Shown one piece after another: positions 19,494 through 32,536 of a DNA stretch of 32,536 bases. Origin of the DNA: an uncultured delta proteobacterium (lineage in GTDB: Bacteria; Desulfobacterota; Syntrophia; Syntrophales; Smithellaceae). Location of the stretch: assembly GCA_903904655.1 (NCBI GenBank), contig CAIVDK010000351.1, positions 1 through 32,536 on the forward strand, written 5' to 3'. The notes beneath the pieces are model-generated. The model was not told the origin of the DNA and searched no databases. It saw only the letters and a list, made by a program, of their open reading frames with translations. Position numbers and translations under genes: made by a program. Numbering within the stretch: position 1 is the first letter of the stretch; every line of letters begins with the position of its first letter.

Positions 19494-19679
19494 AAATACC
19501 TCCTTAAAAATAATATTTTTTATCCCTTGTTAATACGGGACGGGTATCAAGATTTTTTTGACAAACGCTCAGAGATTGATATCGAACGTTCATTTTTTTC
19601 TTAGCAGATAAGAAATGAAACGCAAGAAATATTTTTAATTATCTTCAATGTTTATGATTTTAAATAAAAAAATTACTCT

Positions 19680-20039
19680 TTATTCTTCTCCTTGATAGAT
19701 GCAGCCGGATTCTGGACTTTCCTGAACGATGATCTTATACAATTGCGGCAGTACGGGTCGAAGCCGCCGCCAGATCCACTGGCATAAGTTTTCCGAAGTG
19801 GGATTTTCCAGACCTTCGATATTGTTTAAATTTTTATGATCCAATTGGTCCAGGACCGGTTCAAAAGCAGCCGAAATATCGGCAAAATCCATAACCCAGC
19901 CGGTGCGGGGGTCGGCAAAACCCCGGATGTGAATTTCAACGCGGAAGGAATGGCCATGCAGCTTGGCGCACTTGTGGCCGACAGGAACACAGGGCAGATG
20001 ATGCGCCGCGTCAAATTTGAACACTTTATAAATTTCCAT
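19680..20039 (-). CDS. queD: 6-carboxy-5,6,7,8-tetrahydropterin synthase QueD
   Basis: Converts 7,8-dihydroneopterin triphosphate to 6-carboxytetrahydropterin in queuosine (preQ0) synthesis. The 119 residues match E. coli QueD along their length: DAAHHLP with Zn-ligand His13, catalytic Cys24 in GHKCAKLHGHSF, Zn ligands His28 and His30, DFADISAAFEPVLDQLDHKNLN and ENPTSENLCQWIW, ending in GCIYQGEE. It starts 10 nt after queE and belongs to the same transcript. Confidence 0.95.
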   Translation of the reverse strand: MEIYKVFKFDAAHHLPCVPVGHKCAKLHGHSFRVEIHIRGFADPRTGWVMDFADISAAFEPVLDQLDHKNLNNIEGLENPTSENLCQWIWRRLRPVLPQLYKIIVQESPESGCIYQGEE

Positions 20040-20049
20040 TTTTCATTCC

Positions 20050-20679
20050 TTATCGAACACCTAATATTTTATGCAACTGCAAACTGATTCGCCACTCGGG
20101 ATGAGCCAGAACATACTCCAAGGTCTGCCTTGTGGCCTGTTCCTGACCAGCGCCATCCATTGGCTGCAGAAAAAAATGCCGGAAATTGAGTTTTACATAT
20201 TGTTCCAGTTCGGCCCCGTCCTGCGGATAGACCAGTTTCAACTCATGCCCGCTTACCTGCGCCAACTCCACAGAGGCTTTGGGACTGACACAAATCCAAT
20301 CAATGCCCGCAGGCGCTGCGAGCGTGCCGTTGGTCTCCACGGCTATTTCAAAATTTTCTTCATGCAGGGCGGCAATCAACTCGTCATCGATCTGCAGCAA
20401 GGGTTCTCCGCCGGTGCAAACCACAAAGCGGCGACCGTTTGATTGCGGCCAGTTTTGAGCTATCTTTTTGACCAAAAAGTTTGCGGTTTTATATGATCCG
20501 CCATCGTTGCCGTCCGTCCCGACAAAATCCGTATCACAAAATTTGCAGAGCGCATCTTTTCGGTCTTCTTCTTTACCGGACCACAAATTACATCCGGCAA
20601 AACGGCAAAAAACCGCCGGGCGGCCACTGTAATAACCTTCCCCCTGGACCGAATAAAATATTTCCTTAACAGAATACAT
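20050..20679 (-). CDS. queE: 7-carboxy-7-deazaguanine synthase QueE
   Basis: Radical-SAM enzyme forming 7-carboxy-7-deazaguanine. In the 209 residues the cluster cysteines follow a CX14CX2C spacing (Cys30, Cys45, Cys48), the known QueE variant of the usual CX3CX2C loop. FYSVQGEGYYSGRPAVFCR (8-26) is characteristic, as are CTGGEPLLQ (SAM-binding GGE) and VETNGT. It lies between queD (10 nt downstream) and a 200-bp repeat-filled gap that separates it from queC. QueC, QueD and QueE together supply the preQ0 part of the queuosine pathway; queF/tgt/queA are not in the window. Confidence 0.94.
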   Translation of the reverse strand: MYSVKEIFYSVQGEGYYSGRPAVFCRFAGCNLWSGKEEDRKDALCKFCDTDFVGTDGNDGGSYKTANFLVKKIAQNWPQSNGRRFVVCTGGEPLLQIDDELIAALHEENFEIAVETNGTLAAPAGIDWICVSPKASVELAQVSGHELKLVYPQDGAELEQYVKLNFRHFFLQPMDGAGQEQATRQTLEYVLAHPEWRISLQLHKILGVR

Positions 20680-20690
20680 AAGTCCTTTAT

Positions 20691-20732
20691 GCTGAAGGCT
20701 GACCCCCTAAAGGGGGCACGAGACCGAAGGCT
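20691..20732 (+). repeat. REP-like repeat, copy B (left half of doublet)
   Basis: GCTGAAGGCTGACCCCCTAA followed by AGGGGGCACGAGACCGAAGG and CT. Core CCCCCT-AA-AGGGGG plus arm CGAGACCGAAGGCT. The arm is complementary, 12 of 14 positions, to the arm of inverted copy C 120 bp away, so the pair could fold as one long hairpin. Confidence 0.75.
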
Positions 20733-20792
20733 AAAGCCATTCAAGCCATGTTCGAATTTAACTTTGTGTCTTTGCGCCCCTGTAACTCTGTG

Positions 20793-20825
20793 CCTCGCGC
20801 CACCTCGCTTACCCTCGCGCCACCT
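20793..20825. repeat. 13-bp direct repeat inside the REP doublet spacer
   Basis: CCTCGCGCCACCT occurs at 20793-20805 and again at 20813-20825. The second copy merges into the small palindrome CACCTTCAGGTGG. The neighbouring phrase CTTTGTGTCTTTGCGCC (from about 20762) has a repetitive T/G/C texture and is not coding. Confidence 0.6.
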
Positions 20826-20853
20826 TCAGGTGGTCAGAGTATCAGGTGGTTGT

Positions 20854-20893
20854 CCTTCAGCCTTCAGCCTCGTCCCCCCTTAGGGGGTCAGCC
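20854..20893 (-). repeat. REP-like repeat, copy C (inverted; overlaps queC end)
   Basis: Reads CCTTCAGCCTTCAGCCTCGT, CCCCCCTTAGGGGGTCAGCC on the plus strand, the inverse orientation of copy B. Its end overlaps the last codons and stop of queC (stop at 20882-20880), so the QueC C-terminus RLTP is encoded by repeat DNA. Confidence 0.75.
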
Positions 20894-21596
20894 TATACTT
20901 CCCTGGATCCTTCAGCCCCGCTTCCTGAAAGCCTTTCAAACGCAGCAGACAGGAATCACACTGACCGCAGGCAGCGCCGTCCGTTCCCGGATCGTAGCAA
21001 CTATGCGTCAGGGAATAATCAACGTCCAATGCCATGCCTTTACGAATAATCTGCGCCTTGCTTAACGCGATGAGCGGTGTATGAATTTTTAATTTTTGTT
21101 TGCCCTCCACACCGGCTTTGGTCGCCAGATTGGCCATGCGTTCGTAGGCCTCAATATATTCCGGGCGGCAGTCCGGATAGCCGCTGTAGTCCAGGGCATT
21201 CACACCGATAAAAATGTCGGACGACCCGATCACCTCCGCCCACGCCAAAGCATAAGAAAGAAAGATGGTATTGCGCGCCGGAACGTAGGTGATTGGAATA
21301 TCCTTCCCCATTTCTTGCACTGAGCGGCTCTTGGGAACGTCCAGGTCACTGGTCAGAGCGGATCCCCCGATACGACGCAGATCAATATCAACCGTCAGGT
21401 ATCGAGGCACGAAATAGCGTTTGGCAATGCGCGCGGCGGCTTCCAATTCAACCAGGTGACGTTGACCATACCGGAAGCTCAAGGCACATATCTCAAATCC
21501 CCTGCTCCGGGCAATGGCCAGTGTGGTGGCGGAATCAATGCCGCCGGAGAGCAAAATGACAGCTTTCTTGATTGGTTTATCGACTTCGTTTTTCAT
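20880..21596 (-). CDS. queC: 7-cyano-7-deazaguanine synthase QueC
   Basis: ATP-dependent conversion of 7-carboxy-7-deazaguanine to preQ0. In the 238 residues: PP-loop [10 protein letters not shown] (15-24), [41 protein letters not shown], and the Zn site [18 protein letters not shown] near 203-220. The family fold is complete up to [11 protein letters not shown]. The last residues KYRLTP and the stop fall in a REP-like repeat, so the original 3' end was probably replaced. It is separated from queE by about 200 bp but is on the same strand, and follows tatD by 40 nt. Confidence 0.95.
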
Positions 21597-21636
21597 GGTC
21601 AGATTTTCTATCAGATTTTGTAAAAAATCGCCCGAG

Positions 21637-22413
21637 CTATTTAGCGGGAGAGGTTTTGATGCGGAAAAGCTTCCGGGTGTTAACGGCTGCCGTTTGCGCC
21701 ACGTCTTCCCAGGTCATGCCCTTGATTTCGGCAACTTTTTTTGCCGTATGGATAATAAATGACGGTTCGTTTCTTTTACCGCGATGCGGGACGGGCGTCA
21801 GATAAGGACAATCCGTTTCCAAAAGAATCGAATCAAGCGGCGCCTGCCTTACAACCTCATGCAACACTTTAGACTTATCAAAAGTCACGACACCGGGCAC
21901 GGAAATATAAAAACCCAGGTCAATACACTTCTTGGCCATGGCCCAGTCACCGGAAAAACAATGAAAGACACCCCAGCGGATGCCGGAGGTTTTCACCATG
22001 CTGAGCGTCTCTTCATGAGCGTCGCGGTCATGGATAATTACCGGCAGATTGAGTTCGTTCGCCAATTCCATTTGCTTGGCAAACATTTCTATTTGTTTTT
22101 CACGCGGCGAAATATTGCGAAAGAAATCCAGACCAATTTCGCCATAGGCGACAACTTTCGGATCTTGCGCCAGCACCTTCAGTTCATCGAATGATTTGTC
22201 GTTTGATTTGGCCACATCATGGGGATGAACCCCGACGGTTGCATAAACGTTTTCGTATTGACGGGCAATCATTAGCGCTTTACGGCTCAAGCCCGGATTT
22301 GTTCCCACTGTGATGATACAGTCAACCCCTGCGAGGCTGGCCCGTTCGATCACGTCCTTACGGTCGGAATCGAATTCTTTCATTTCCAGGTGGGCATGGG
22401 AGTCAACCAGCAT
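21637..22413 (-). CDS. tatD: TatD-family metal-dependent hydrolase (DNase)
   Basis: TIM-barrel metallo-hydrolase of the TatD/YcfH family, reported as 3'-5' nuclease or deaminase-like fold. The 258 residues show DSHAHLE (His6, His8), GVHPHD, GEIGLDF (metal-bridging Glu), [21 protein letters not shown] and [21 protein letters not shown]. The gene is 5 nt behind a small 55-residue gene and 40 nt before queC. A joint transcript is likely. The subfamily (TatD, YcfH or YjjV) is not decided; the length fits YcfH-type. Confidence 0.9.
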
Positions 22414-22418
22414 AACTC

Positions 22419-22586
22419 CTACTTTTCGTTGGCCTGAAACGGAATTTCTTCTGCATTATCGGCCATATCGGGCAGCTTCTTTAAAAGAGCGGATAAATCT
22501 TTTTCTGATAATTCACCGATCAGTACCTTGCGGGAAATGATTCGGCGGTCGGTTTTGAGTAATTCTGAGTTGATTCTTCTGGGCAT
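22419..22586 (-). CDS. small conserved-looking protein, 55 residues
   Basis: ATG 22586 with GGAGG 6 nt upstream opens a 55-residue frame, MPRRINSELLKTDRRIISRK, then VLIGELSEKDLSALLKKLPD and MADNAEEIPFQANEK. It is basic in the first half, acidic in the second, and predicted helical with no membrane segment. The stop is 5 nt before tatD, which argues for translation in the same operon. I do not recognise the family. Strong RBS, tight spacing and clean frame make it more than a chance ORF. Confidence 0.7.
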   Translation of the reverse strand: MPRRINSELLKTDRRIISRKVLIGELSEKDLSALLKKLPDMADNAEEIPFQANEK

Positions 22587-22757
22587 TTAAATCCTCCTGG
22601 GAAACATAGCCTGTAAACTTTTTCATATTCATTCTTAACTATGGCGGACTAGTATTCTATTTTAACAACATAATCAAGCCCCAAGAGTTTTGTGATGAAT
22701 TGTGGCATTAAATAAATATTCAACTTTGATGACACAGTTGCCGTACATATCATAAAA

Positions 22758-23585
22758 TTATCTTTTCAAGCGGGGGTCGGACGCGTCGCGTATGCCTTCA
22801 CCCAATAAATTATAGCCGACTACCGTGATAAGAATCGCCAGGCCCGGATAAAGCGACAGCCACCAGGCGATATCGATATTATCTTTGCCTGCCGTCAGAA
22901 TATTCCCCCAGCTGGGCGTCGGCGGCTGCACGCCGATTCCCAAAAAACTCAGGGCCGACTCCGTCAGAATCGCACCGGCAATGCCGAGGGTAGCCGCAAC
23001 CAGAATGGACGCCAGCGCGTTGGGTAGAATGTGCATAAAAATAATCCGTGCATCATTTGCGCCTATGGCCCGGGCCGCCCGCACGAAATCCCGCTCGCGA
23101 AGCGAGACAAAATCCGCCCGCACCAGGCGAGTCACCCCCATCCAGCCGGTGAGCCCAATCACAATCATAATATTCCAGATCGAAGGCTCCAGAAAGGCGA
23201 TCACCGCCAGGATCAGGAAAAAAGCGGGAAAACAAAGCATGACATCCACAAATCGCATGATCACCGCATCGATCCAACCGCCGTAGAAACCGGCAACGGC
23301 GCCCAGAATCATCCCGATGAGAATTGCGAGACCCGTGGCGACAAAACCGACCTTCAGCGAAATTCGCGCTCCCCAAATCATTCGGGAAAGAACATCGCGC
23401 CCCAGCTGATCCGTGCCAAACCAGTGTTCACCGGACGGCGGCGCCAGGACATTTCTCAGATCAATCGCGCCGGGATCGTAAGGCGCAAGCACGGACGCCA
23501 GGAGCGACACGACAAACAGTAAAATTACAATACCACAGCCGGTCAGCGCCAGTTTGTTCTTATAAAACATTTTCCAGAAACCCAT
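22758..23585 (-). CDS. dppC: DppC-type ABC transporter permease
   Basis: Inner-membrane subunit of a dipeptide/oligopeptide/nickel ABC importer. The 275 residues have an N-terminal OppC-type leader (MGFWKMFYKNKLALTGCGIV), then LAPYDPGAIDLRNVLAPPSGEHWFGTDQLGRDVLSRMIWG, typical of DppC/OppC. About six membrane spans and the EAA loop near RAARAIGANDARIIFMHILPN follow. It follows the DppB-type gene by 12 nt. No ATPase or solute-binding protein lies in the window, so the cognate parts are elsewhere or absent. The substrate is unknown. Confidence 0.88.
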   Translation of the reverse strand: MGFWKMFYKNKLALTGCGIVILLFVVSLLASVLAPYDPGAIDLRNVLAPPSGEHWFGTDQLGRDVLSRMIWGARISLKVGFVATGLAILIGMILGAVAGFYGGWIDAVIMRFVDVMLCFPAFFLILAVIAFLEPSIWNIMIVIGLTGWMGVTRLVRADFVSLRERDFVRAARAIGANDARIIFMHILPNALASILVAATLGIAGAILTESALSFLGIGVQPPTPSWGNILTAGKDNIDIAWWLSLYPGLAILITVVGYNLLGEGIRDASDPRLKR

Positions 23586-23597
23586 CGTTTTACTCTT

Positions 23598-24572
23598 TCA
23601 CGAAATGCGGATACGCGGATCCGCCAGCGCATACGACAAATCGGCAATCAAATTCCCCACCAACGTCAAAATCGCGCCTATCAGCAATATTCCCATGACC
23701 GTCGGATAGTCACGAGCCATCACCGACAGGTAAAACAATTGCCCCATGCCCGGAATCGCAAAAATAGTTTCAAAGATGACACTGCCTCCGATCAGGCCGG
23801 GGATGGACAATCCCAGGATGGTAATCGCCGGCAATAGCGCATTGCGCAAGGCATGTTTATAAATAACCTGTCTTTCGCTCAACCCCTTGGCGCGCGCCGT
23901 CAAAATGTAATCCTGCCTGATGACCTCCAGCATATTCGCCCGCATGTAGCGGGAAAGCCCGGCCAATCCTCCGAAAGCGGATATGAAGACCGGCAGAATC
24001 AGATGCTTGACCAGATCCGCCAACTGTCCCCAGGCACTGAGATATTCATAATTCAGGGACCGCAATCCCGAAATCGGCAGCCACCCCAGGTGAATGCCGA
24101 AAAAAATCATCATGAGCAACGCCAGCCAGAAGGTCGGCACAGCAAAACCGATAAATACAAGCACAGCGGTCACTTTATCAAAAAGCGAATCCTGATGAAC
24201 CGCCGACAAAACGCCAATCGGCACAGCCACCGCAATAATAATGATCAGCGATAGGAAATTGATAATAACTGTGATCGGCAGACGCTCCAGAATCTTGTCT
24301 GCCACCTTCCGGTGGTCGGATGAAAAGGAAGTGCCCAAATCACCGCGCCCCAGTTTCGTGAGCCATGACCAGTATTGAACATGGATGGGCTTATCCAGTT
24401 CATACATGCTCATCAGCCGCTCTTTCATCTCGGTCGACGCTTTCGGATTCATCTGCGTCTGCAAATCCGTTGGCGATCCGGGCGCCAGACGCATCACAAA
24501 AAAACAAATAACGGTGATGCCGAGCAGAAGCGGAATCATAAAGAGGATTCTCTTGATCAGATAGTTACTCAC
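23598..24572 (-). CDS. dppB: DppB-type ABC transporter permease
   Basis: Partner permease of the DppC-type subunit. The 324 residues begin [20 protein letters not shown], a standard DppB/OppB start. RLAPGSPTD follows and there are six predicted spans. The EAA motif is [26 protein letters not shown], and [16 protein letters not shown] and [10 protein letters not shown] are typical near the end. It starts 24 nt after the TIM-barrel isomerase gene, so the three form one minus-strand unit. Confidence 0.9.
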
Positions 24573-24596
24573 ATTATTCTCCGCGGTAGGTTTTTT

Positions 24597-25400
24597 TTAA
24601 TCCGCCTTATCCCCGTCATACCAAAGCGATATTTTTTGCAAATTAACCACCGACTGCCAAAGATGTTCCTGCGCATGCGCTTCCAGCGTGATCGTTGGCC
24701 TGGCTTTCATATCTTTCAGCGCCATGAAAAACCGCTCGAAAGGGAACGTCGCCGCGCCCACCGGCAGATGCTCATCAAACTTGCCGAAGTTATCATGCAG
24801 ATGCAGATGACCGATATAACGGCCCATCTGCTCCATCCAGGCTTTCAAAGGCGCATAGGAAAAGACATTGAAATGCCCCGTGTCAAAACAAAAACAAATC
24901 TGATCCGAAGCAAGCATTTCAAACAACCGGCTTAAAATGTGCGGTTCTTTTTCATAAACATTTTCCAGAGCAATGATGGTCGCTGCGTCTTTGGCCACCG
25001 GAATAAGCTGACGCCAGAAATTGACGCTATTTTCCAGCCACAAATCATCGCAGTCCACATAGTAGCGGTCGTCAAAGGACGGATGGCAGACAATTTTCAG
25101 TGGTTGAAAATGCGGTGTTAGGTCAAACACCTGTCGAATCCGATCCAGGCTGCTCTTTCGGATCTGATCATCGAGCGCACCGGGACGCAAATCTACAAAA
25201 GGAGCGTGAAAAGTCACTTTCAATCCGGCATCTTTTAATCTGTGAGCGGTCTCGGCACACTTATTTTTATCCAGTGATTGTAACGCATAGTGGCTGAAAT
25301 AAATCTCCAGATTGAGCTTCTTCTCCAGAATCATCGGCAGATACTGGGACAGGAGCTGATAAGGCATATGCGCATGAATTTTTCTTAAAATATCGAGCAT
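24597..25400 (-). CDS. xylose-isomerase-like TIM-barrel protein
   Basis: AP endonuclease family 2 / sugar phosphate isomerase-epimerase fold, 267 residues. Signs are LKVTFHAPFVDLRPG, ICHPSF-type strand (KIVCHPSFDDR), IALENVYEKEPH (metal-binding Glu), CFCFDTGHFNVF (Asp/His), YIGHLHLHDNFGKFDEHLPVG and ITLEAH. These match a metal-dependent isomerase, epimerase or endonuclease barrel. Position directly before dppB suggests it acts on an imported compound, but substrate and reaction are open. ATG 25400 has AAAGGGA upstream. Confidence 0.8.
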   Translation of the reverse strand: MLDILRKIHAHMPYQLLSQYLPMILEKKLNLEIYFSHYALQSLDKNKCAETAHRLKDAGLKVTFHAPFVDLRPGALDDQIRKSSLDRIRQVFDLTPHFQPLKIVCHPSFDDRYYVDCDDLWLENSVNFWRQLIPVAKDAATIIALENVYEKEPHILSRLFEMLASDQICFCFDTGHFNVFSYAPLKAWMEQMGRYIGHLHLHDNFGKFDEHLPVGAATFPFERFFMALKDMKARPTITLEAHAQEHLWQSVVNLQKISLWYDGDKAD

Positions 25401-25601
25401 TTCAAAATCCCTTTCAAGATGGATAAGGAACGTTGATTTACCATAGTCATTTTTTTTTCACAACACCAATGAGGAGAACCTGAGTTAACATGCTGCCAGG
25501 GCAGAAGAGAAGTCGGTACTCTGCACGAATTCTGAAGGACGGGGCTTCCGATACCCATTCTTGAGGCATTAGAGGAATGAAAATTGATGAACTCGTAAAA
25601 A

Positions 25602-25619
25602 ATCCTGGCGCAGCAGGAT
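25602..25619 (+). repeat. small inverted repeat upstream of the hydrolase gene
   Basis: ATCCTG-GCGCAG-CAGGAT, preceded by GATGAACTCGTAAAAA. It lies 35 bp before the start codon at 25654 in a 253-bp gap between divergent genes. It could be an operator or part of a dispersed repeat. Nothing else was recognised in that gap; two tiny ORFs in it look like chance. Confidence 0.35.
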
Positions 25620-25653
25620 CGAAAGTGCAATAATAAAAGAGGAGGCAGAACTC

Positions 25654-26454
25654 GTGAAAGACCACCAATGGATTCCCAGCCGCGGCCAGCGGCTATCAGC
25701 CATGGTTCACCTTCCGGATCAGGGCAAAGTAAAAGATCCGGTAATCGTGATGTGTCATGGCTTCACAGGAGACAAGATCGGCATGAACCAAATGAACGCC
25801 AGACTGGCAGCGGCATTGGAGTCAGCCGGTTACGCGGTCATACGGTTTGACTTTCTGGGATCCGGTGACAGCGATGGTGAGTTCGCTACGGATACCATCG
25901 TAGCAGGCTGGCTGACAGATACCGCAAATGTTATGCAATGGGTTTCTGAACAACCGGAATTTTCCAGTCTGCCTATTGTGCTTTACGGCCATAGCCTGGG
26001 CGGTCTGATTGCCCTGTGCCACAAAGATGAAGGCGCCAGGGTGGCGGCCAGAATCGCGTTTGCCCCTGTTGTCGATGCAGTGGAGAACCTGAGAACATCC
26101 ATTTTGGGACAGGATTTATGGCAAAAGTCTTTTCGCGGTGAAACCATTGCCAACTTTTACGGCAAAGCCTACTCCCTGCGACCACAATTTGTCCACGATT
26201 TAGCGGAAAACCGTTATGACCCGCTCCATGATGCCGCAGTGCTGACGACTCCGTTGCTGGTCGTGCATGGGACATCCGATGTAGCGGTTCCCATTGAAGG
26301 TTCGCATATTTTATTTGAAAGATACAACGGCCCCAAAGAAATGAAGGTTCTGGAAATAGATCATGTGGCAGCTGGGCAGCTGGGTCCCTGGATAGCCGCC
26401 ATAATTGAGTGGTTGGACAGAACTTTCCCCGACAGGCGAATGCGTGCTATATAA
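25654..26454 (+). CDS. alpha/beta hydrolase (serine esterase/peptidase-like)
   Basis: 266-residue alpha/beta-hydrolase. The oxyanion region is MCHGFTGDKIG (33-43), the nucleophile elbow is GHSLGG (Ser114), with acid Asp209 in VVHGTSDVAVP and His237 in IDHVAAG. The FDFLGSGDSDGEF segment is typical of the DUF1100/dienelactone hydrolase-like or FrsA-like esterase group. There is no signal peptide, so it is cytoplasmic. It starts with GTG; GGAGG lies 8 nt upstream. It diverges from the TIM-barrel gene. The substrate is not evident. Confidence 0.85.
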   Translation: MKDHQWIPSRGQRLSAMVHLPDQGKVKDPVIVMCHGFTGDKIGMNQMNARLAAALESAGYAVIRFDFLGSGDSDGEFATDTIVAGWLTDTANVMQWVSEQPEFSSLPIVLYGHSLGGLIALCHKDEGARVAARIAFAPVVDAVENLRTSILGQDLWQKSFRGETIANFYGKAYSLRPQFVHDLAENRYDPLHDAAVLTTPLLVVHGTSDVAVPIEGSHILFERYNGPKEMKVLEIDHVAAGQLGPWIAAIIEWLDRTFPDRRMRAI

Positions 26455-26619
26455 GCAAATCTTCTGAGCTACTCGATGGCTGGCCTACCTTCCGGGATGG
26501 GATACTCTCCCGTTGGACCACACGATCTTGCCCGGCCGCACAAATGTCCCTAAATTCCTTGTCGTTCCACGCCCTCTTTTACTCGTTCCTGTTCATCGCG
26601 CAATTGCTGGCTGAGCGGA

Positions 26620-27477
26620 TCAAAACTGATAAATCATCATCATCCCACCGCTGAAATCGTGGTTTGCATCGGTGAAGCCGACGGATCCATAGATTTCCCA
26701 CGAGATCCGGCGCGATTGCATGAAGTTTAGTTTGATCTGTCCCTCTGCCTGAGCCTCCGCCCCCTCGGAACGCGAGGACGAGCCTTTGGCCAGCACGGAG
26801 ACAAATAGCCGCTCCGTCGCCTGGATGCCTACCCCGCCGAGATAGCTGGCATAGTTACGACCGGGATAGTCGGATTTGCTATTCTGGAAGATATAGGCCC
26901 CCTCCCCGAACAGTTGAACGTTTCCCAACCACTTAGAGACCGAAAATCCGGGTCCCGCTTCAACGGTACCGGTTCCCAAACCGCGGTCCAGATCTCCCGA
27001 GGGGACCTTCACATAGAAAGTGGCCCTAGCTTTGTGGGTTTTCTCTCCATCCTGCAACAGGGTCCAGCCGGTTGTCATATTAACATCTCCCACGCCGGAC
27101 GCTTGCACCGTTGTCGCTGCAATCGCCGCCGTCGGCGATCTGTTTGCACCTCGACCCCGTCCGGTGCCGCCGGAGTTGGTCACTACCACACCGCTGTCGG
27201 ATTTGCTGGACAAGTAAAGAAGAGGGACTCCAATGGTGATATCCACTTTGTTTAAAGGATACAAAAAAACAGACAGCGGCAACTTAACCAGTGTGGCATT
27301 GGCGCCTACGCCGTAATCGCCGTGCGAGACCTCAATCCCTAGACCGACAGCGGTTGATGCAGCGTTTTCGAGACGAGGCTCACCATCACGTGCCAAGACC
27401 TGTGACGCTTGCGCAAATAGTGCCAAACAGAGAAACACTCCTACTTTATTTCGTATGCTCATAGTCATGCTCGTCAT
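26620..27477 (-). CDS. exported outer-membrane beta-barrel-like protein
   Basis: About 285 residues. A signal peptide (SIRNKVGVFLCLALFAQASQ then VLA/RDGEP) precedes a beta-rich mature part with alternating aromatic/small residues and a C-terminal Phe (MMMIYQF), as expected of an outer-membrane barrel. The layout (VDITIGVPLLYLS, GVGDVNMTTGWTLL, FYVKVPSGDLDRGLGTGT, GPGFSVSKWL) resembles the MetA-pathway 'phenol degradation/transporter' family. Residues around GGTGRGRGANRSP form a Gly/Arg-rich loop. The upstream frame to 27510 starts with TTG, so ATG 27477 (or 27468, whose RBS spacing is better) is preferred. It is the last of four exported-protein genes. Confidence 0.72.
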   Translation of the reverse strand: MTSMTMSIRNKVGVFLCLALFAQASQVLARDGEPRLENAASTAVGLGIEVSHGDYGVGANATLVKLPLSVFLYPLNKVDITIGVPLLYLSSKSDSGVVVTNSGGTGRGRGANRSPTAAIAATTVQASGVGDVNMTTGWTLLQDGEKTHKARATFYVKVPSGDLDRGLGTGTVEAGPGFSVSKWLGNVQLFGEGAYIFQNSKSDYPGRNYASYLGGVGIQATERLFVSVLAKGSSSRSEGAEAQAEGQIKLNFMQSRRISWEIYGSVGFTDANHDFSGGMMMIYQF

Positions 27478-27534
27478 TTCCTTTCGGTGCTCATGGAAAA
27501 TCGATTTCAACCGCCCGCCCTGACCATGATGAGT

Positions 27535-28056
27535 TCATCGTCCGCGGTGTCCCCCCGCACCGCCACCGCGCATACCCTGGCCCCCGGAACCGCCCTCGCG
27601 GAGTCCGCCGGACCAGGCGGGGATTCCATTTTCACCGCGCAGCACAATGGTTGCACCACCCGGTGAGATGATCCGCTCTGACAACAGATAGGTTCTTCCG
27701 TCCTTGCCCTGGGCAAGCGAGCCCCGCACGGTAACCGGGTCGCCAATCTTCCAGTCCAGGTTATCGTCCTGAAGATACCAGGCAGGTCCAAGAACCACGA
27801 CAATCTGTTCGCCCGGGAGATGCAGATCGAAGGCCATCAGGCCTCCGGCAAGCGGGCGAGGGGAGACCGCAATCGATCCGCTGATCTTCACAACCGTGTT
27901 ACGGTCATACCCCTGTTCCAGATTCAGACCACTTTTATTCGGATCCTTGGAGTCACCGAACCCCCAGACTGCGTCAGCCGTTCCTCCCAGCAGGAGCAGA
28001 AGGATTGCTGCCGCAATCAAGATATAAAAGCACTGAATTCCTCTCATTTTCTCCAT
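27535..28056 (-). CDS. exported OB-fold-like protein with Gly-rich tail
   Basis: 173 residues from ATG 28056 (MEKMRGIQ; ATG 28047 is an alternative). Signal peptide or anchor (FYILIAAAILLLLLGGTADA), then a small beta-barrel-like domain: VVKISGSIAVSPRPL, DLHLPGEQIVVVLGPAWYLQ, WKIGDPVTVRGSLAQGKDGR, TYLLSERI. This recalls bacterial OB-fold periplasmic proteins (BOF/DUF5666-like). The tail is Gly/Arg-rich (GGSGGQGMRGGGAGGHRGR). No function is recognised. The frame extends to 28233 but that part only shadows the preceding 72-residue gene. Spacing to neighbours is 25 and 57 nt. Confidence 0.72.
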   Translation of the reverse strand: MEKMRGIQCFYILIAAAILLLLLGGTADAVWGFGDSKDPNKSGLNLEQGYDRNTVVKISGSIAVSPRPLAGGLMAFDLHLPGEQIVVVLGPAWYLQDDNLDWKIGDPVTVRGSLAQGKDGRTYLLSERIISPGGATIVLRGENGIPAWSGGLREGGSGGQGMRGGGAGGHRGR

Positions 28057-28081
28057 CACCCCGACACGCACTAAGATTGCC

Positions 28082-28300
28082 TCAGCTCTGGCAAGAGCCG
28101 TCCTTCTTCCGGTCCCGCTGCCGGGTCTGATTGGCGGCCAAATCGTATCCGGCTTTCTTTTCCATTGTATAGCTTTGGCAAGAACCGTCCTTCTTCCGAT
28201 CGCCTTTCCGAATCTGATCGCCTGCAGAAGCAATGCTTACAACACACAAACTCACCACCACCATCGTGAATCCCATCTTCAACCATTTCGAAACATTCAT
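28082..28300 (-). CDS. small exported protein with duplicated DRKKDGSCQS
   Basis: 72 residues with a clear signal peptide (KWLKMGFTMVVVSLCVVSIA then SA/GDQ). The mature ~45 residues contain DRKKDGSCQS twice, the second at the very C-terminus, separated by YTMEKKAGYDLAANQTRQR. Each copy has a single Cys. AAGGAGG lies 6 nt before ATG 28300, an excellent RBS. The neighbouring 104-residue protein has the related RRDGSFQS. No family is recognised; the cysteines could bind metal or form a disulfide, or the repeat could be an assembly or processing site. It belongs to the sigma-54-controlled exported-protein group. Confidence 0.72.
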   Translation of the reverse strand: MNVSKWLKMGFTMVVVSLCVVSIASAGDQIRKGDRKKDGSCQSYTMEKKAGYDLAANQTRQRDRKKDGSCQS

Positions 28301-28355
28301 TTCAAACCTCCTTCGTCTTAATTCAAAAATATCAAGTTAAAAACCCCTGCATTCC

Positions 28356-28372
28356 GCTCATTTTTAATGAGC
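28356..28372 (-). other. intergenic stem-loop between two exported-protein genes
   Basis: Perfect dyad GCTCATT-TTT-AATGAGC, 4 nt past the stop of the 104-residue gene. There is no adjacent T-tract (a TTTTT run follows only after about 15 nt), so it may act in mRNA processing or partial termination rather than as a full terminator. Confidence 0.5.
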
Positions 28373-28376
28373 CTTG

Positions 28377-28691
28377 TTACGGCGTCGTGCTTTGGGGATG
28401 GTTGATCCCCGTACCATCCATCACACCGCGGCCATTGGCGGGGCGGGTGGTGGAGCCGTTTGCCGTGGTTCCGGTACTCTGGAAAGACCCGTCACGACGC
28501 TGGGAACCCTCCGGCCGAACCTGATTTGTAGACTGATTCATAGACCGGGTCTGCGACTGGGTTTTTGTCTGAACCCCCTGGCCGCTACCTGCACCTGCTC
28601 CTGTTCCGCCTCCGCGGGCAAAGGATTCGCCCCCAAAAGCCAGTGCAGATCCCACCAATACCGCTATCACCATCATGTGCTTTGCTTTCAT
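28377..28691 (-). CDS. small exported Gly/Ser/Thr/Gln-rich protein
   Basis: 104 residues. A signal peptide (KAKHMMVIAVLVGSALAF then GGESFA/RGGG) precedes a low-complexity mature chain rich in Gly, Ser, Thr, Gln and Asn, with no Cys and no evident fold. It carries QRRDGSFQSTG, related to DRKKDGSCQS in the next gene. The RBS AAGGAGAGACGAAG precedes ATG. Some 55-70 nt upstream on the same strand is a sigma-54 type promoter, and farther up are two dyad sites. It is the first gene of the exported-protein operon. Function is unknown; an intrinsically disordered periplasmic or surface peptide is likely. Confidence 0.7.
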   Translation of the reverse strand: MKAKHMMVIAVLVGSALAFGGESFARGGGTGAGAGSGQGVQTKTQSQTRSMNQSTNQVRPEGSQRRDGSFQSTGTTANGSTTRPANGRGVMDGTGINHPQSTTP

Positions 28692-28745
28692 CTTCGTCTC
28701 TCCTTGTGGATGTAATCGGGAATCATTCCCGTTGCCATAGGATAA

Positions 28746-28761
28746 AGCAGAAGCCGTGCCA
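28746..28761 (-). promoter_or_regulatory. putative sigma-54 (-24/-12) promoter
   Basis: The minus strand reads TGGCAC-GGCTT-CTGCT, one base away from the consensus TGGCAC-N5-TTGCW. The predicted start is near 28735, leaving about 44 nt of leader before ATG 28691. An NtrC-family sigma-54 activator is encoded right upstream, which supports the call. Confidence 0.72.
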
Positions 28762-28834
28762 ATCTCTTCATAAATCGTATCTCACTGTTATCGCTAATGT
28801 ATATACAAAAGGATAAAACCCCCGTGAGACTAAT

Positions 28835-28850
28835 GGTGCAATTGCTGCAC
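28835..28850 (-). promoter_or_regulatory. putative activator (UAS) site 1
   Basis: GGTGC-AATTG-wise dyad: GGTGCAATTGCTGCAC on the plus strand, containing the perfect palindrome GTGCA-N5-TGCAC. It matches site 2 at all positions outside the 5-bp spacer. It is centred about 95 bp upstream of the -12 element, a usual distance for NtrC-type enhancers. Confidence 0.6.
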
Positions 28851-28856
28851 TTATGC

Positions 28857-28872
28857 GGTGCCGATTCTGCAC
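28857..28872 (-). promoter_or_regulatory. putative activator (UAS) site 2
   Basis: GGTGCCGATTCTGCAC, the same GGTGC-N5-CTGCAC pattern as site 1 and 22 bp away, i.e. two helical turns on the same face. It lies just after the stop of the sigma-54 activator gene. Confidence 0.6.
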
Positions 28873-28878
28873 CTTCGA

Positions 28879-30231
28879 TCAACTGTCTGTAAGACCATAC
28901 TCTTTGAGCCGGTACTGCAAGGTGCGCTTCGATATTCCCAGGCGCTCCGCCGCCAGGCGGCGGTTCCCGCCGCACTGTGTCAGGACTTCCAGAATGGCCG
29001 CCTGCTCCCGATTCTGCAAGCTGCCGTCGCTTGCAACCGGTGGTGATTGGACCGGTCGGCGGATCAGCTCCGGAAGCTCGTTCAGTGTGATCCTGCCGCT
29101 GCTCAATATCACGGCCCTTTCGATGACATTCTGCAACTCCCGAATGTTTCCCGGCCAGTCGTAGCCAGAAAAGGCTGCGAGCACATCCTGCTCGACAAGA
29201 GAAATCGCCCTTCCGATCTGCCGGGCCGCCCGTGATACCAGGTACTCGGTCAGGACTGGCAGCGCGTCGCGCCTTTCCCGCAGTGGAGGAAGATGGATCG
29301 GAAAGACGTTCAGGCGGTAGTAGAGGTCTTCCCGGAAACGTTTTTCACGAACTTCGACTGCTAGGTCCCGGTTGGTAGCCGCGACAATCCTCACATCTGC
29401 CCGGATCTCTCGACTACCCCCCAGGCGTTCAAAAGTCCTTTCCTGCACGACCCGCAGCAACTTGGCCTGCAACACCAGGGGCAGCTCGCCGATCTCATCC
29501 AGGAACAAGGTTCCGCCGGCCGCCAGTTCGAATTTCCCCGGACGGACCTGTGTGGCGCCGGTGAAGGCCCCCTTCTCGTGACCGAAGAGCTCGCTCTCCA
29601 TCAGCGTTTCGGGGATTGCCGCACAGTTTACGGCGACAAAAACAGCGTCGCGTCGCCGACCGGCAAGATGGATCATCCGGGCCGCCAGTTCCTTTCCGGT
29701 GCCGGACTCGCCGGTGATCAGGACCGAGGCGGGGGTGTCTGCCACATTCCCGATCAGGCTGTGCACATCCGCCATTGCCACGCCGGCGAACATCACTTTT
29801 TCCGGTGGCAGCCCGGCCGCCTCCCGCTCCTTCAGGACGGTCAGGGTTAGCTCCCGGCGATGGTTATCTAAGGTCCGCCGCACCAGAGCCCTCAAGGCAT
29901 CTGGATCTTTCAGCGGCTTCGTGAGAAAATCGGCGACGCCCTCCTTGAGCGCCGATACGGCATCTTCTACCGTACCGAAGGCGGTTAGCAAAACGAACGG
30001 TGGGGCAATTCCCTCGGATTTAGCCTGGCGGAACAGCTCCAACCCCTCCATGCCCGGCAGCCGCAGATCCGAAAGGACCAGATCGAAGGAGCGGCGACGC
30101 AAGGACAGCAGGGCCTGTTTGCCGTCCTTCTCCTCGACGATGTCGTAACCTTCATCCTCCAGAACCGTGACCAAAAGCGACCGAAAGGTCGGGTCATCCT
30201 CAATAATCAGGATGGTGGCCTGATTCATCAT
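28879..30231 (-). CDS. NtrC-family sigma-54-dependent response regulator
   Basis: 450 residues. The receiver domain has acidic pocket EDD (11-13), phospho-acceptor Asp55 in LSDLRLPGM, Thr/Ser region LLTAFG and Lys105. The AAA+ domain has Walker A GESGTGKE (174-181), GAFTGA (221-226, sigma-54 contact), Walker B TLFLDEIG (241-248), ATNRDL, RxDLYYRL and the arginine-finger region. The C-terminal Fis-type helix-turn-helix is NRRLAAERLGISKRTLQYRL. It overlaps the kinase gene by ATGA. It most resembles ZraR/HydG-type regulators. Two dyad sites and a sigma-54 promoter follow directly, making the downstream exported-protein genes its likely targets. Confidence 0.93.
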   Translation of the reverse strand: MMNQATILIIEDDPTFRSLLVTVLEDEGYDIVEEKDGKQALLSLRRRSFDLVLSDLRLPGMEGLELFRQAKSEGIAPPFVLLTAFGTVEDAVSALKEGVADFLTKPLKDPDALRALVRRTLDNHRRELTLTVLKEREAAGLPPEKVMFAGVAMADVHSLIGNVADTPASVLITGESGTGKELAARMIHLAGRRRDAVFVAVNCAAIPETLMESELFGHEKGAFTGATQVRPGKFELAAGGTLFLDEIGELPLVLQAKLLRVVQERTFERLGGSREIRADVRIVAATNRDLAVEVREKRFREDLYYRLNVFPIHLPPLRERRDALPVLTEYLVSRAARQIGRAISLVEQDVLAAFSGYDWPGNIRELQNVIERAVILSSGRITLNELPELIRRPVQSPPVASDGSLQNREQAAILEVLTQCGGNRRLAAERLGISKRTLQYRLKEYGLTDS

Positions 30232-31490
30232 AATGGCTCCCTCTTTTTACAGGGCGGCAGCAGGACGATAATCTCTGCCCCGCCCCCGTCGGCATTGGCG
30301 GCGCTGATTATGCCTCCGCACCCTTCGACGATCTTGCGGCAGACCGCCAGCCCCAGACCGCTGCCCCGCAGGCGGGTTGTGAAAAAGGGGTCGAAAGCCC
30401 TTTTCAGCGCCTCTTCGCTAAGCCCAGCGCCGCTGTCCCGAACCTTCAACGTGATCATCTTCCTACTCTTTGTGGCCGACAGCCACACCGTCCCTCCCGC
30501 GGGGATCGCCTGCAAAGCGTTGCTGAGAAGATTGATCAGCAGTTGTTGCAGCCTTTCTGGGCGGCAGGCTATCCGTATGTCGGGCAGGGTCGACAGCTCC
30601 GGTTTTGCGGGCTGGGTTTCGTTGCGCTCAACCGTGTTCCACACTTGATCGATAAACGCCTCATTCAGCAGGGTGCAGCCGTCGCCGGGGTCGTCCTGTC
30701 GGGTGTAATCGAGCAGGTCGCTGACCAGCCCTTCCAATCGGACCGTTTCCTGCGCGATGAGGGCGGCGAATTTCCGGGACCGATCGTCGGTGATCCGCTC
30801 CTCCAGCAACTGGGCGTATCCCTTGATACCGGCTAGGGGCGTGCGCACCTCGTGGGCCATCACCGCGCCCAACTCGCCGAGCCGGGCCATCTGTTCCTGC
30901 CGGGCCAGCTGTTCCCGTCGTCGAACTTCACGCTTCTGCAGTCGAACCAGTAAAAAGCCTAACACCCAGGCCCCCGCTGTCAGCGTCAACAGGAGGGTCG
31001 TGCCGGTGCGGGCTCGGTTGATGATCTGATCGGCCTGCCAGGTATGCAACACCAGCCGCAGAATCAGGGTTTCCCCGGGCAGGTGCAGTAGGAGATGAGA
31101 CTCATAGGCCTCCTCCCCTGTGCCCAGGCGGATACTGCTTTCGACGGGCGCGGCAGCGGAGAAAGCGGGAAGGTAGCGGTCGTCGCCAACGGTTTCTCCT
31201 GTCAATTCGGGGTTCTGGTGGAAACGGATCCGGCCGGAACGGTCGATCAGGGCAAAATAGGCAATGTCGCGGTAGCGAAAATCTGAGAGGGCTTTAAAAG
31301 ATGGATCGCGGGCGGCGAGATTCTCTATCGTCTGCCTCAGGGAGAACGCCAGTCCCTGCAGCAAAACCCGAGCCACCGGTCGGGCGTTTTGTTGGCTGGA
31401 TAGAGCAAACCACAGCAGGAAGACGGTCATAAGGATGCCGCCCGTCAGCAGCAGGGTATACGCTCCGGGTCGTTTCATCTGAAAATGCAC
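30228..31490 (-). CDS. membrane sensor histidine kinase
   Basis: 420 residues. Transmembrane helices at about 11-30 and 164-183 flank a periplasmic sensor region (31-163, PAS/Cache-like; FALIDRSGRIRFHQNPELTG is typical of ZraS-type sensors). HisKA has the phospho-acceptor His213 in MAHEVRTPLAGIKGY. The ATPase domain shows N-box LLINLLSNALQAIP, DSGAG (352-356), FDPFFTT and GSGLGLAV (376-383). The start is GTG 31490 with AAGG too near, or ATG 31478; both keep the first helix. There is no HAMP segment of normal length. It is cotranscribed with the response regulator. Confidence 0.9.
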   Translation of the reverse strand: MHFQMKRPGAYTLLLTGGILMTVFLLWFALSSQQNARPVARVLLQGLAFSLRQTIENLAARDPSFKALSDFRYRDIAYFALIDRSGRIRFHQNPELTGETVGDDRYLPAFSAAAPVESSIRLGTGEEAYESHLLLHLPGETLILRLVLHTWQADQIINRARTGTTLLLTLTAGAWVLGFLLVRLQKREVRRREQLARQEQMARLGELGAVMAHEVRTPLAGIKGYAQLLEERITDDRSRKFAALIAQETVRLEGLVSDLLDYTRQDDPGDGCTLLNEAFIDQVWNTVERNETQPAKPELSTLPDIRIACRPERLQQLLINLLSNALQAIPAGGTVWLSATKSRKMITLKVRDSGAGLSEEALKRAFDPFFTTRLRGSGLGLAVCRKIVEGCGGIISAANADGGGAEIIVLLPPCKKREPL

Positions 31491-31537
31491 GCCTTCATTC
31501 TGACCATCGTCTCTTTAGCTTATCTTCAAGCAGTAAT

Positions 31538-31705
31538 TTATCCGATTTTTTTGTTTACGGGCGCTTCTATCTCTTGAATAAAATATTCCATTACTTTTGC
31601 AGCAGCACTGAAAGCAACAGCGGCACCTGATCCAATGAGCACTTTTTGCCACCAAGGCATTTCCTTTATCACTTTTGCGGTAGCCTTAATCATAGTGCGT
31701 ATCAT
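31538..31705 (-). CDS. small hydrophobic protein, 55 residues
   Basis: ATG 31705 with GAGGG 9 nt upstream. The product reads MIRTMIKATAKVIKEMPWWQ, KVLIGSGAAVAFSAAAKVME, YFIQEIEAPVNKKIG. It has a basic amphipathic start, a small-residue-rich helix (about 21-42) that could lie in or on the membrane, and a short polar end. It lies 47 nt upstream of the histidine kinase gene on the same strand but is more AT-rich. No family is recognised. Confidence 0.55.
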   Translation of the reverse strand: MIRTMIKATAKVIKEMPWWQKVLIGSGAAVAFSAAAKVMEYFIQEIEAPVNKKIG

Positions 31706-31960
31706 TACATAGTCCCTCTTTGGAATTTACTAAATTTCTGAGATAAACATTATGATTAAATCTTATGATATTAATCAGTTATACCATTTCGTGTCATGAT
31801 TCTTCATATCATAGTTATGGAAAAAACAATATCATTTGTTCCGGTTTGAAGAACTAATCCATTTCGCGGTAGCCATCCCATCGCAATCTTTCCTAGGCTT
31901 AAAATGACGTATTGTCAAGTATTAGCAATTGTGACATAGAGAAACAGTCCGAAGGATAAA
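31706..31960. other. AT-rich intergenic DNA, nothing recognised
   Basis: No ORF, RNA gene or convincing promoter was found. A TTGACA on the minus strand (about 31912-31917) lacks a good -10 partner. The region lies between the divergent small hydrophobic protein gene and the REP-like doublet upstream of rsfS. Confidence 0.4.
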
Positions 31961-31995
31961 GGCTGACCCCCTTGAAGGGGGCACGAGACTGAAGG
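31961..31995 (+). repeat. REP-like repeat, copy D (left half of doublet)
   Basis: GGCTGACCCCCTTGAAGGGG, GCACGAGACTGAAGG. The same core and arm as copy B. The arm CGAGACTGAAGG is perfectly complementary to CCTTCAGTCTCG of copy E 68 bp away. Confidence 0.75.
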
Positions 31996-32062
31996 TCTAT
32001 TTTGTGCGCCTTCGGCGTTATAGGTTTCCTTAATGACGGCGCGTTTCACGCCTTTCATCTTA

Positions 32063-32106
32063 TCCTTCAGTCTCGCGCGCCCCGCAGGGGGGGCGGCCTT
32101 CAGTCT
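32063..32106 (-). repeat. REP-like repeat, copy E (inverted partner of D)
   Basis: TCCTTCAGTCTCGCGCGCCC, CGCAGGGGGGGCGGCCTTCA, GTCT. Inverted relative to copy D and more diverged in its core (CGCCCC-GCA-GGGGGGGCG). It ends 12 nt before the ribosome-binding site of rsfS. Confidence 0.7.
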
Positions 32107-32130
32107 AAAAACTTATTCAAGGAGGTTTTT

Positions 32131-32526
32131 TTGTCAGTTAAAAAAAATGAATCGGCTCGGCGTCTGCTTTTATGCATCAACGCCGTCTTGCAGAAAAAAG
32201 CGAAAAATATCGTTGTTTTGAATGTCAAAGAGACTTCTTCCTTTACGGACTATTTGCTGATCTGCTCGGGTGCAACCGACCGGCAGGTGCAGGCTGTTTC
32301 CGATGCAATCCAGGAATATCTCAAGAAAGAAGATATCAGACCGCTGGGTGTAGAAGGTAAAACCAATGCGGAATGGATTCTGCTGGATTATGATGATGTG
32401 GTCATCTCCGTTTTTCAGGAGTCGGCTCGCTCATTCTACGGTCTGGAAGACTTGTGGGACGCGCCACGCATGAAGATTGACGAAAATGCCGCCGAAATAA
32501 AAAAATTAACCAAGGATATGGTTTGA
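32131..32526 (+). CDS. rsfS: ribosomal silencing factor RsfS
   Basis: Binds the large ribosomal subunit (protein L14) and blocks joining with the small subunit in poor growth. The 131 residues carry the DUF143/Iojap signature: VLNVKETSSFTDYLLICSGA, TDRQVQAVSDAIQEYL, GKTNAEWILLDYDDVVISVF and SARSFYGLEDLW. The start is a TTG at 32131, read from AAGGAGG just upstream and from homologue length. The longer frame back to 32002 only runs through repeat DNA, and the nearby ATG at 32148 is out of frame. Stop TGA lies 10 nt before the window edge. The REP-like doublet occupies its upstream region. Confidence 0.92.
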   Translation: MSVKKNESARRLLLCINAVLQKKAKNIVVLNVKETSSFTDYLLICSGATDRQVQAVSDAIQEYLKKEDIRPLGVEGKTNAEWILLDYDDVVISVFQESARSFYGLEDLWDAPRMKIDENAAEIKKLTKDMV

Positions 32527-32536
32527 TTTTAAGTGA

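Follow-up and report, generated by a model that had tools for sequence, protein, structure and literature searches.

A candidate sigma-54-dependent two-component cassette for exported proteins in Deltaproteobacteria and its possible link to metals

In the zinc and envelope response system ZraPSR of E. coli, a kinase and an NtrC-type activator are combined with a sigma-54 promoter and a small exported target. The regulators CusR and SilR are of the OmpR type, which is the kind known for copper and silver. For small Met/His-rich exported proteins, the comparator is SilE (PMC5008109). The locus described below lies in a stretch of 32,536 nucleotides (“the window”) from an uncultured delta proteobacterium of the Smithellaceae (contig CAIVDK010000351.1), and its logic is best read as similar to that of ZraPSR and Cus/Sil, while its parts are different.

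Like ZraPSR, the cassette comprises a kinase and an NtrC-type activator, a sigma-54 promoter and a small exported target, and of the solved structures ZraS is the nearest to its kinase core. It differs from ZraPSR in the low scores against the NCBIfam models of ZraS (176 bits versus a cut-off of 479) and ZraR (365.7 versus 760), in the lack of a Metal_resist (PF13801) match in its two small exported proteins (S104 and S72) and its OB-fold protein, and in the addition of this OB-fold protein and of an outer-membrane barrel. The only PF13801 match of the genome is located on a separate contig (C167). The Cus/Sil systems with SilE/PcoE are resembled by one branch of the cassette, which has small Met/His-rich exported proteins and in which several loci adjoin genes for CusA/CusB/CusC, a P1B ATPase or a multicopper oxidase. 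However, the cassette activator is NtrC-type, not OmpR-type like CusR/SilR, and the subtype found in the window has neither a Met/His-rich small protein nor Cus genes nearby. No description of the cassette was found in the titles and abstract openings of the literature searched, and to this extent we agree with an earlier, sequence-only reading of the window, in which no named system could be matched.

The six open reading frames of the block (26620-31490) are all on the minus strand, and the activator, S104, S72, OB-fold and barrel genes follow each other with gaps of 187, 76, 34 and 66 nt, as expected from the compact arrangement proposed earlier. The sensor histidine kinase (30228-31490; Pfam HisKA and HATPase_c) overlaps by 4 nt with the activator (28879-30231; Response_reg, Sigma54_activat and HTH_8), which consists of a receiver, an AAA+ sigma-54 domain and a Fis HTH. 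Judged by eye, the kinase has a periplasmic sensor flanked by two TM segments, in which the signal would be perceived. Its best PDB match is ZraS (9jfj), restricted to the kinase core (profile positions 187-413); hence the designation “ZraS-like” is appropriate for this core and not for the sensor region, which is outside the match. Each of the positions H91, H149, E56 and T124-G125 is conserved in 92-99% of the 72 kinases compared. The block is richer in GC (57.9%) than the stretch 1-25400 (49.1%), in accordance with the earlier impression.

S104 (28377-28691, minus strand) is a small exported Gly/Gln-rich protein representing the S family, whose members are of low complexity, rich in Gly, Gln and Thr, and share an invariant motif in 27 aligned proteins; in S104 this C-terminal motif is SQRRDG(T/S)F..TGTTANG.T.R...G.G..DG. 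S72 (28082-28300, minus strand), also small and exported, carries two copies of RKKDGSCQS, and its gene has a 55-nt internal repeat (D1). The signal peptides of all exported proteins of the block were assigned by eye. S104, S72 and the OB-fold protein are below the cut-off of every Pfam family. A search of gene neighbourhoods with these proteins was partly productive: S and the OB-fold protein recur beside the kinase and activator genes, whereas none of the other fetched loci yielded S72.

The next gene (27535-28047, minus strand) encodes an exported protein with a Gly-rich tail, assigned by structure model and family alignment. The predicted structure (pLDDT 79.6) has the five-stranded barrel of an OB fold and is superimposed on PriB by VIA-align with Z 9.5 and rmsd 2.0 over 78 residues, so that the model bears out the former description as “OB-fold-like”. 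The similarity to PriB/SSB-type proteins is limited to the fold, the cassette protein being, by eye, exported and Gly-rich-tailed, and its core residues, also by eye, are not CusF-like metal ligands. Lysyl-tRNA synthetases, the top Foldseek rows for this model, were set aside as carriers of a common OB module. Among viral contigs, 11 stretches matched the OB-protein pattern, and none encoded a relative.

The barrel-like outer-membrane protein (26620-27468 from its ATG, minus strand; an alternative TTG start is possible at 27510) is FapF/Phenol_MetA_deg-like, its PF13557 score of 22.7 bits being just past the cut-off of 22, in line with the earlier description as barrel-like; the single-sequence model reached pLDDT 29, too low to be usable. 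The protein was aligned with 8 relatives. When its profile was compared with the PDB, FapF chains were the only matches (E 0.003-0.005), and the NCBIfam FapF model gives 11 bits against a cut-off of 700. Together with the low-complexity, Gly/Gln/Thr-rich S and its invariant motif, this weak similarity would fit a Fap-like secretion route, in which S would be a structural or matrix component outside the cell, carried by the OB-fold protein and exported via the FapF-like barrel under sigma-54 control. We consider this unlikely: the FapF match spans about 53 of the 293 profile positions, no other Fap family was matched by the eight window proteins scanned, cassettes of clade A use an unrelated OmpG-like barrel, and S has only about 80 mature residues without a long repeat.

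The putative sigma-54 (-24/-12) promoter TTGGCACGGCTTCTGC is located at 28747-28762 on the minus strand, where TGGCACGGCTTCTGC (28747-28761) has one mismatch to the consensus. Taken alone this site is weak, because the window holds 28 sigma-54 sites with up to two mismatches versus 33.5 expected. The assignment is made strong by the comparison with relatives: a sigma-54-type site precedes S in 66 of 67 loci scanned, at a distance of about 34-100 bp (approximate for L103), including 7/7 loci where S is ahead of the kinase pair, and the -12 C is kept in 21 of the 66, the window among them. In L108, the sole miss, such a site occurs at a greater distance upstream. The scan excludes seven loci in which S was unusable (L057, L089, L091, L094, L098, L156 and L172) as well as L109-L120. 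The promoter proposed earlier, one base from consensus, is thus retained.

Upstream of it, after the stop of the activator gene, are two dyads, GGTGCAGAATCGGCACC (28857-28873) and AGTGCAGCAATTGCACC (28835-28851), both on the minus strand, each with one mismatch to GGTGCA-N5-TGCACC and each a probable activator site. The window has 3 sites with up to two mismatches to this pattern versus 1.2 expected. A scan of 48 loci gave GTGCA-N-TGCA dyads before S in 42 of them, and in 6 of the 7 where S comes ahead of the kinase pair. Loose dyads (up to three mismatches) occur within 390 bp around the stop of the activator gene in 27/33 loci, their density outside this region being about 0.64 per kb (311 in 483 kb). 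Among the sites listed for the genome, no close pair other than that of the window occurs, while single dyads are not enriched (53 versus 75 for a reversed-pattern control), so that the proposed genome-wide motif search distinguished the pair and not the single sites. An extended regulon was rejected: three further perfect GGTGC-N7-GCACC sites of the genome (C443, C177 and C330) were without a convincing sigma-54 site where expected.

The kinase, NtrC-type activator, S and OB-fold protein, usually joined by the barrel, form a recurrent set that was found in at least 13 phylum families and in two deep clades, the activator tree comprising 74 distinct sequences. Comparison between loci shows joint conservation of the gene set, the predicted sigma-54-type site and the dyads. 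In all of 20 further loci (taken from the best profile matches among 395 genomes of the phylum) the activator and kinase genes are beside the OB gene, and in family f46 an OB-family match was detected in 52 of 76 genomes, one of these weak. Conserved co-occurrence, named beforehand as the outcome that would support a system, was in this way found across many families. Homologues lacking the regulators, named as the opposite outcome, are not the rule and occur as exceptions: L112, L171 and L176 have no kinase or activator in the available stretch, L179 retains only an activator remnant, and in genome G393 the S gene and the OB-kinase-activator set are on different contigs. G216 contains an S-like gene (E 6e-7) unaccompanied by OB, kinase or activator genes in 13 kb.

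None of 19 genomes from the window's own genus has an OB match, and the window's cassette is related to copies from another family. It is situated in an insertion hot spot, within an insert (25401-32049) between an AP_endonuc_2-family gene and rsfS that is absent in G008 and G014. Our best reading is that the cassette moves horizontally through many Deltaproteobacteria as a self-regulated unit, and we propose, with moderate confidence, that it represents a self-contained, horizontally moving envelope-response system.

Composition of S divides the cassettes into two subtypes: the Met+His fraction is 0.04 in S104 of the window and 0.10-0.18 in S of the Met/His-type loci, and the genomes G536 and G553 each harbour paralogous cassettes representing the two subtypes. 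Copper/silver markers (CusA, CusB, CusC, P1B ATPase, DUF302 and multicopper-oxidase homologues, up to about 8 kb either side) are near 6 of 14 Met/His-type loci (L105 being counted by DUF302 alone), versus 0 of 35 loci of the RDGS type, to which the window belongs (Fisher p 2e-4, which is not exact because the Met+His threshold of 0.08 was chosen after inspection of the data and the loci share ancestry). For the other 8 Met/His loci, none of these markers was seen in the searched stretch. The count omits L040, the source of the query genes, and L039, L156 and L172, where S was not picked, and the RDGS group includes L103 and L107, for both of which a wrong ORF had first stood in for S; before L103 was moved to this group and L040 left out, the values were 7/16 versus 0/34. 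The initial “CusB/CusA” groups proved to be partly general RND, HlyD and MacA-like proteins, which were uncounted under stricter thresholds. In L040 and L184 the metal neighbours are on the same strand as the cassette (in L040 also by Pfam).

An “envelope or metal response” had been suggested for the window. The metal part is favoured by the copper/silver genes around one branch and disfavoured by the window itself, where 19501-32536 contains no copper/silver marker gene among the homologues searched. We rejected copper alone as the explanation, since neither a metal gene nor a Met/His-rich S was found in the window. For the RDGS type and clade A, metal hints come from other neighbours: DUF2202, a domain of unknown function, is inside or adjoining the operon in L156, L157 and L052, and PF13801 matches are located about 5 kb from the L156 cassette (above the cut-off) and about 7 kb from the L155 cassette (below it).

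A general envelope-stress operon of the ZraPSR or Cpx kind, with chaperones as products and misfolding or membrane damage instead of one ligand as the signal, would agree with the ZraS-like kinase core, the sigma-54 logic, the export of every product and the occurrence, partly judged by eye, of RND or ABC efflux genes in the vicinity of several loci. We give it a low probability, since a generic chaperone fails to explain the strong differences in S composition between branches, and the window's operon has no ZraP/Spy-type protein. Less probable still is a redox or electron-transfer accessory operon for envelope c-type cytochromes. L053 has a dihaem cytochrome gene (PF09626) between S and OB, a CCP_MauG protein is encoded near L052, and L107 has, by eye, a similar peroxidase-like gene, but these are 3 loci only, and none was noticed in the window.

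In the four Met/His members used for composition (L040, L099, L104 and L105), the OB tails and barrel loops are Met-rich; the OB-tail comparison comprised these and L100 and L103. Tentatively, the cassettes may form an undescribed class of dedicated export to the envelope, in which each senses its own periplasmic ligand and secretes S via its own barrel, the OB-fold protein serving as carrier. S would be adapted to the ligand, and so, for the most part, would the OB tail and the barrel loop, with Met/His for copper or silver and DG(S/T)-rich sequences for another, perhaps hard, metal. The S, OB and barrel proteins do not strictly change together, since L100 and L103 pair a Met-rich OB tail with an RDGS-like S; the activator of L100 is within the Met/His branch.

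Returning to the envelope-response system, the cassette is probably a previously undescribed means by which cells cope with metals at their surface, since one branch often sits among copper/silver resistance genes. The kinase would sense a periplasmic signal and phosphorylate the activator, which may bind the dyads and, with RpoN, switch on S, OB and barrel genes. We suppose that S, which may be periplasmic or secreted, is a small and disordered binding protein, that the OB-fold protein is its periplasmic partner or carrier, and that the barrel serves as its outer-membrane exit or anchor. In the Met/His branch, the composition of S and the frequent location of the cassette in copper/silver islands make Cu(I)/Ag(I) the probable signal and ligand, and S may act like a SilE-type sponge. 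In the RDGS branch of the window, the ligand is probably another metal or the signal a related envelope stress, which is the weakest step of the scheme.

On the basis of sequence alone, the presented analysis delineates a conserved candidate regulon of Deltaproteobacteria with its promoter, regulator and targets, including small and OB-fold protein families that here reach no Pfam or NCBIfam cut-off. The two subtypes predict that the ligand response should track S composition. The cassette also brings an NtrC-type two-component system into possible connection with copper or silver.

The cassette of the window (26620-31490, minus strand) has six genes, and these genes and their regulatory sites were recovered at the positions assigned by the sequence-only reading. 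The kinase and activator genes overlap by 4 nt. Past the activator stop lie two dyads and a sigma-54-type site (one mismatch), and then, on the same strand as the activator, four genes, which encode the small exported proteins S104 and S72, the OB-fold protein and the barrel. The block is indeed GC-rich, as had been stated (57.9% GC vs 49.1% at 1-25400). The adjoining region 31491-32049 has 39% GC and, upstream of the kinase, contains a 55-residue ORF without family (31538-31705, minus strand).

This architecture is close to certain. The OB protein is matched in 42 of 197 relatives and, by profile search, in 108 of 395 genomes of the phylum; in f46, another family of the phylum, 52 of 76 genomes match the OB family, one of them weakly. 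Several matches represent a generic OB protein and lack a cassette kinase or activator in their vicinity (loci L042, L043, L044, L046, L054, L055, and L058, some on short contigs); the cassette type is a distinct branch. Activator and kinase adjoin the OB gene in all 20 further loci taken from the best profile matches, and both are present in 10 of 12 named loci (Smithella, HGW-Deltaproteobacteria-13 and -19, CSP1-8, RBG_13_43_22, and others), although half a dozen of these loci apparently come from genomes already covered; the remaining two without the set are L112 and L114, the latter a short contig. The co-occurrence proposed earlier as a check is therefore borne out by recurrence of the gene set, with exceptions: L112, L171, L176, and L179 have small, OB or barrel genes with no intact kinase pair nearby. 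In L179 (7012-7375) the activator is reduced to a C-terminal remnant beside S-OB-barrel and CusA/CusB genes.

The earlier OB-fold-like call agrees with the predicted structure, which has an OB fold (model pLDDT 79.6) and matches PriB (Z 9.5, rmsd 2.0, 78 residues). In the sensor region of the kinase, two histidines (H91 and H149) and E56 are conserved. The window-type S proteins share an invariant motif between linkers of free length (27 aligned). A profile search for S in 297 genomes of the phylum gave 10 matches, five strong and five weak, and all five genomes with strong matches (G000, G250, G304, G351, and G393) also hold the cassette. Since in G393 the S gene (L204, 7207-7533) lies on a different contig from OB-kinase-activator, and a weak S-like gene in G216 (L206, 6607-6987) has no cassette gene within 13 kb, S can stand apart from the cassette. 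S72 contains a 55-nt imperfect tandem duplication (78%, window 28084-28225), which gives RKKDGSCQS twice; no relative of S72 was found in the other fetched loci.

Sigma-54-like sites with up to two mismatches number 28 in the whole window vs 33.5 expected, so a single such site there means little and the promoter case rests on the relatives. A perfect TGGCAC-N5-TTGC occurs far from the cassette at 401-415 (minus strand). Of 67 loci, 66 carry a TTGGCA(C/T)-type site some 34-100 bp ahead of S, and in 49 of the 67 the best score reaches the 99th percentile of mononucleotide-shuffled sequence. The -24 GG and -12 TG are present in all 66 selected sites, the scoring rewarding these letters and not site position; the -12 C is present in 21 of the 66, the window's among them. 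Most clade-B copies (L099-L106, L151-L187) have G, A or T in its place, and the window retains C. A scan of 48 loci, comprising the window and clade B, detected GTGCA-N-TGCA dyads upstream of S in 42. Seven loci (L101, L182, L185, L186, L188, L189, and L190) have the gene order S-OB(-barrel)-kinase-activator, and the sigma-54-type site still precedes S in all seven and the dyads in six, which argues that both elements are part of the S operon rather than of the activator 3' end. Sigma-54 control of the cassette is very likely.

The activator tree (74 distinct rows) spans 13 family labels and contains two clades, A and B, which have the kinase, activator, S and OB genes in common. Clade A (Syntrophales-type and others) usually terminates in an OmpG-like barrel (28 loci, five being second records of the same genome; OmpG E 0.0017, profile vs PDB), and clade B, the window included, in a FapF-like one (FapF E 0.003, profile vs PDB). 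The tree suggests transfer of the cassette between lineages. The window activator pairs with that of L039 (genome G142; same gene order) with support 100/100, and these two form with 11 f46 rows (99/64 alone) a 13-row group (100/100). Copies from the window's own family (L048 and L052) belong to clade A and are separated from the window's copy by a 100/100 split of length 0.91, and an OB match is absent in all 19 same-genus genomes, several of them incomplete.

The insertion point between the AP_endonuc_2 gene and rsfS is a hot spot (window 25401-32049; loci L210-L214). In G008 and G014 the two genes are neighbours with nothing inserted, their matches lying 266 and 285 bp apart; G007 has 3.8 kb filled by other genes, and G004 and G009 have other genes on the same side. 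By eye, these non-cassette genes are AbiEii-like and type I restriction-like. G020, of another genus, has a clade-A cassette near the same AP gene. Directly before rsfS, the window carries a long imperfect inverted repeat (31959-32100, 37-nt arms, 81%).

The cassette works similarly to ZraPSR and Cus/Sil, but by the tests made it is a member of neither. A probable metal link appears in one clade-B branch (15 rows, 100/97), where S is Met/His-rich in every row except L100. All four Met/His members examined (L040, L099, L104, and L105) have Met-rich OB tails and barrel loops, but L100 and L103 share the Met-rich OB tail although their S is RDGS-like, as in the window. L040 is a copper island, with Pfam matches to a multicopper oxidase, DUF302, a P1B-type ATPase carrying HMBD and YHS domains, an OEP protein and a CusB-type adaptor, and, by eye, the start of a CusA-like gene; L181, L184, and L187 resemble it by homology. 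A lipoprotein-like protein of about 290 residues without Pfam match follows or joins the clade-B operon in multiple loci (L040 10464-11381; also L099, L103, L104, and L156), being present in 12 of 14 Met/His vs 4 of 35 RDGS loci.

The earlier guess of an envelope or metal response gains support from the Met/His branch: at least one strict copper/silver homologue lies in the fetched stretch of 6/14 Met/His vs 0/35 RDGS loci (p 2e-4, with L040 excluded as the query source, L105 counted through DUF302 alone, the subtype threshold fixed after a first look and the loci related by descent). Weaker hints suggest that metals may also concern the RDGS subtype and clade A: DUF2202 is inside or adjoining the operon in L156, L157, and L052, and a Metal_resist protein is encoded about 5 kb away in L156 and, below the cut-off, about 7 kb away in L155. 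Because G536 and G553 each hold one cassette of each subtype, the two subtypes probably respond to different signals. Metal handling is likely for the Met/His branch and is a fair guess for the cassette of the window.
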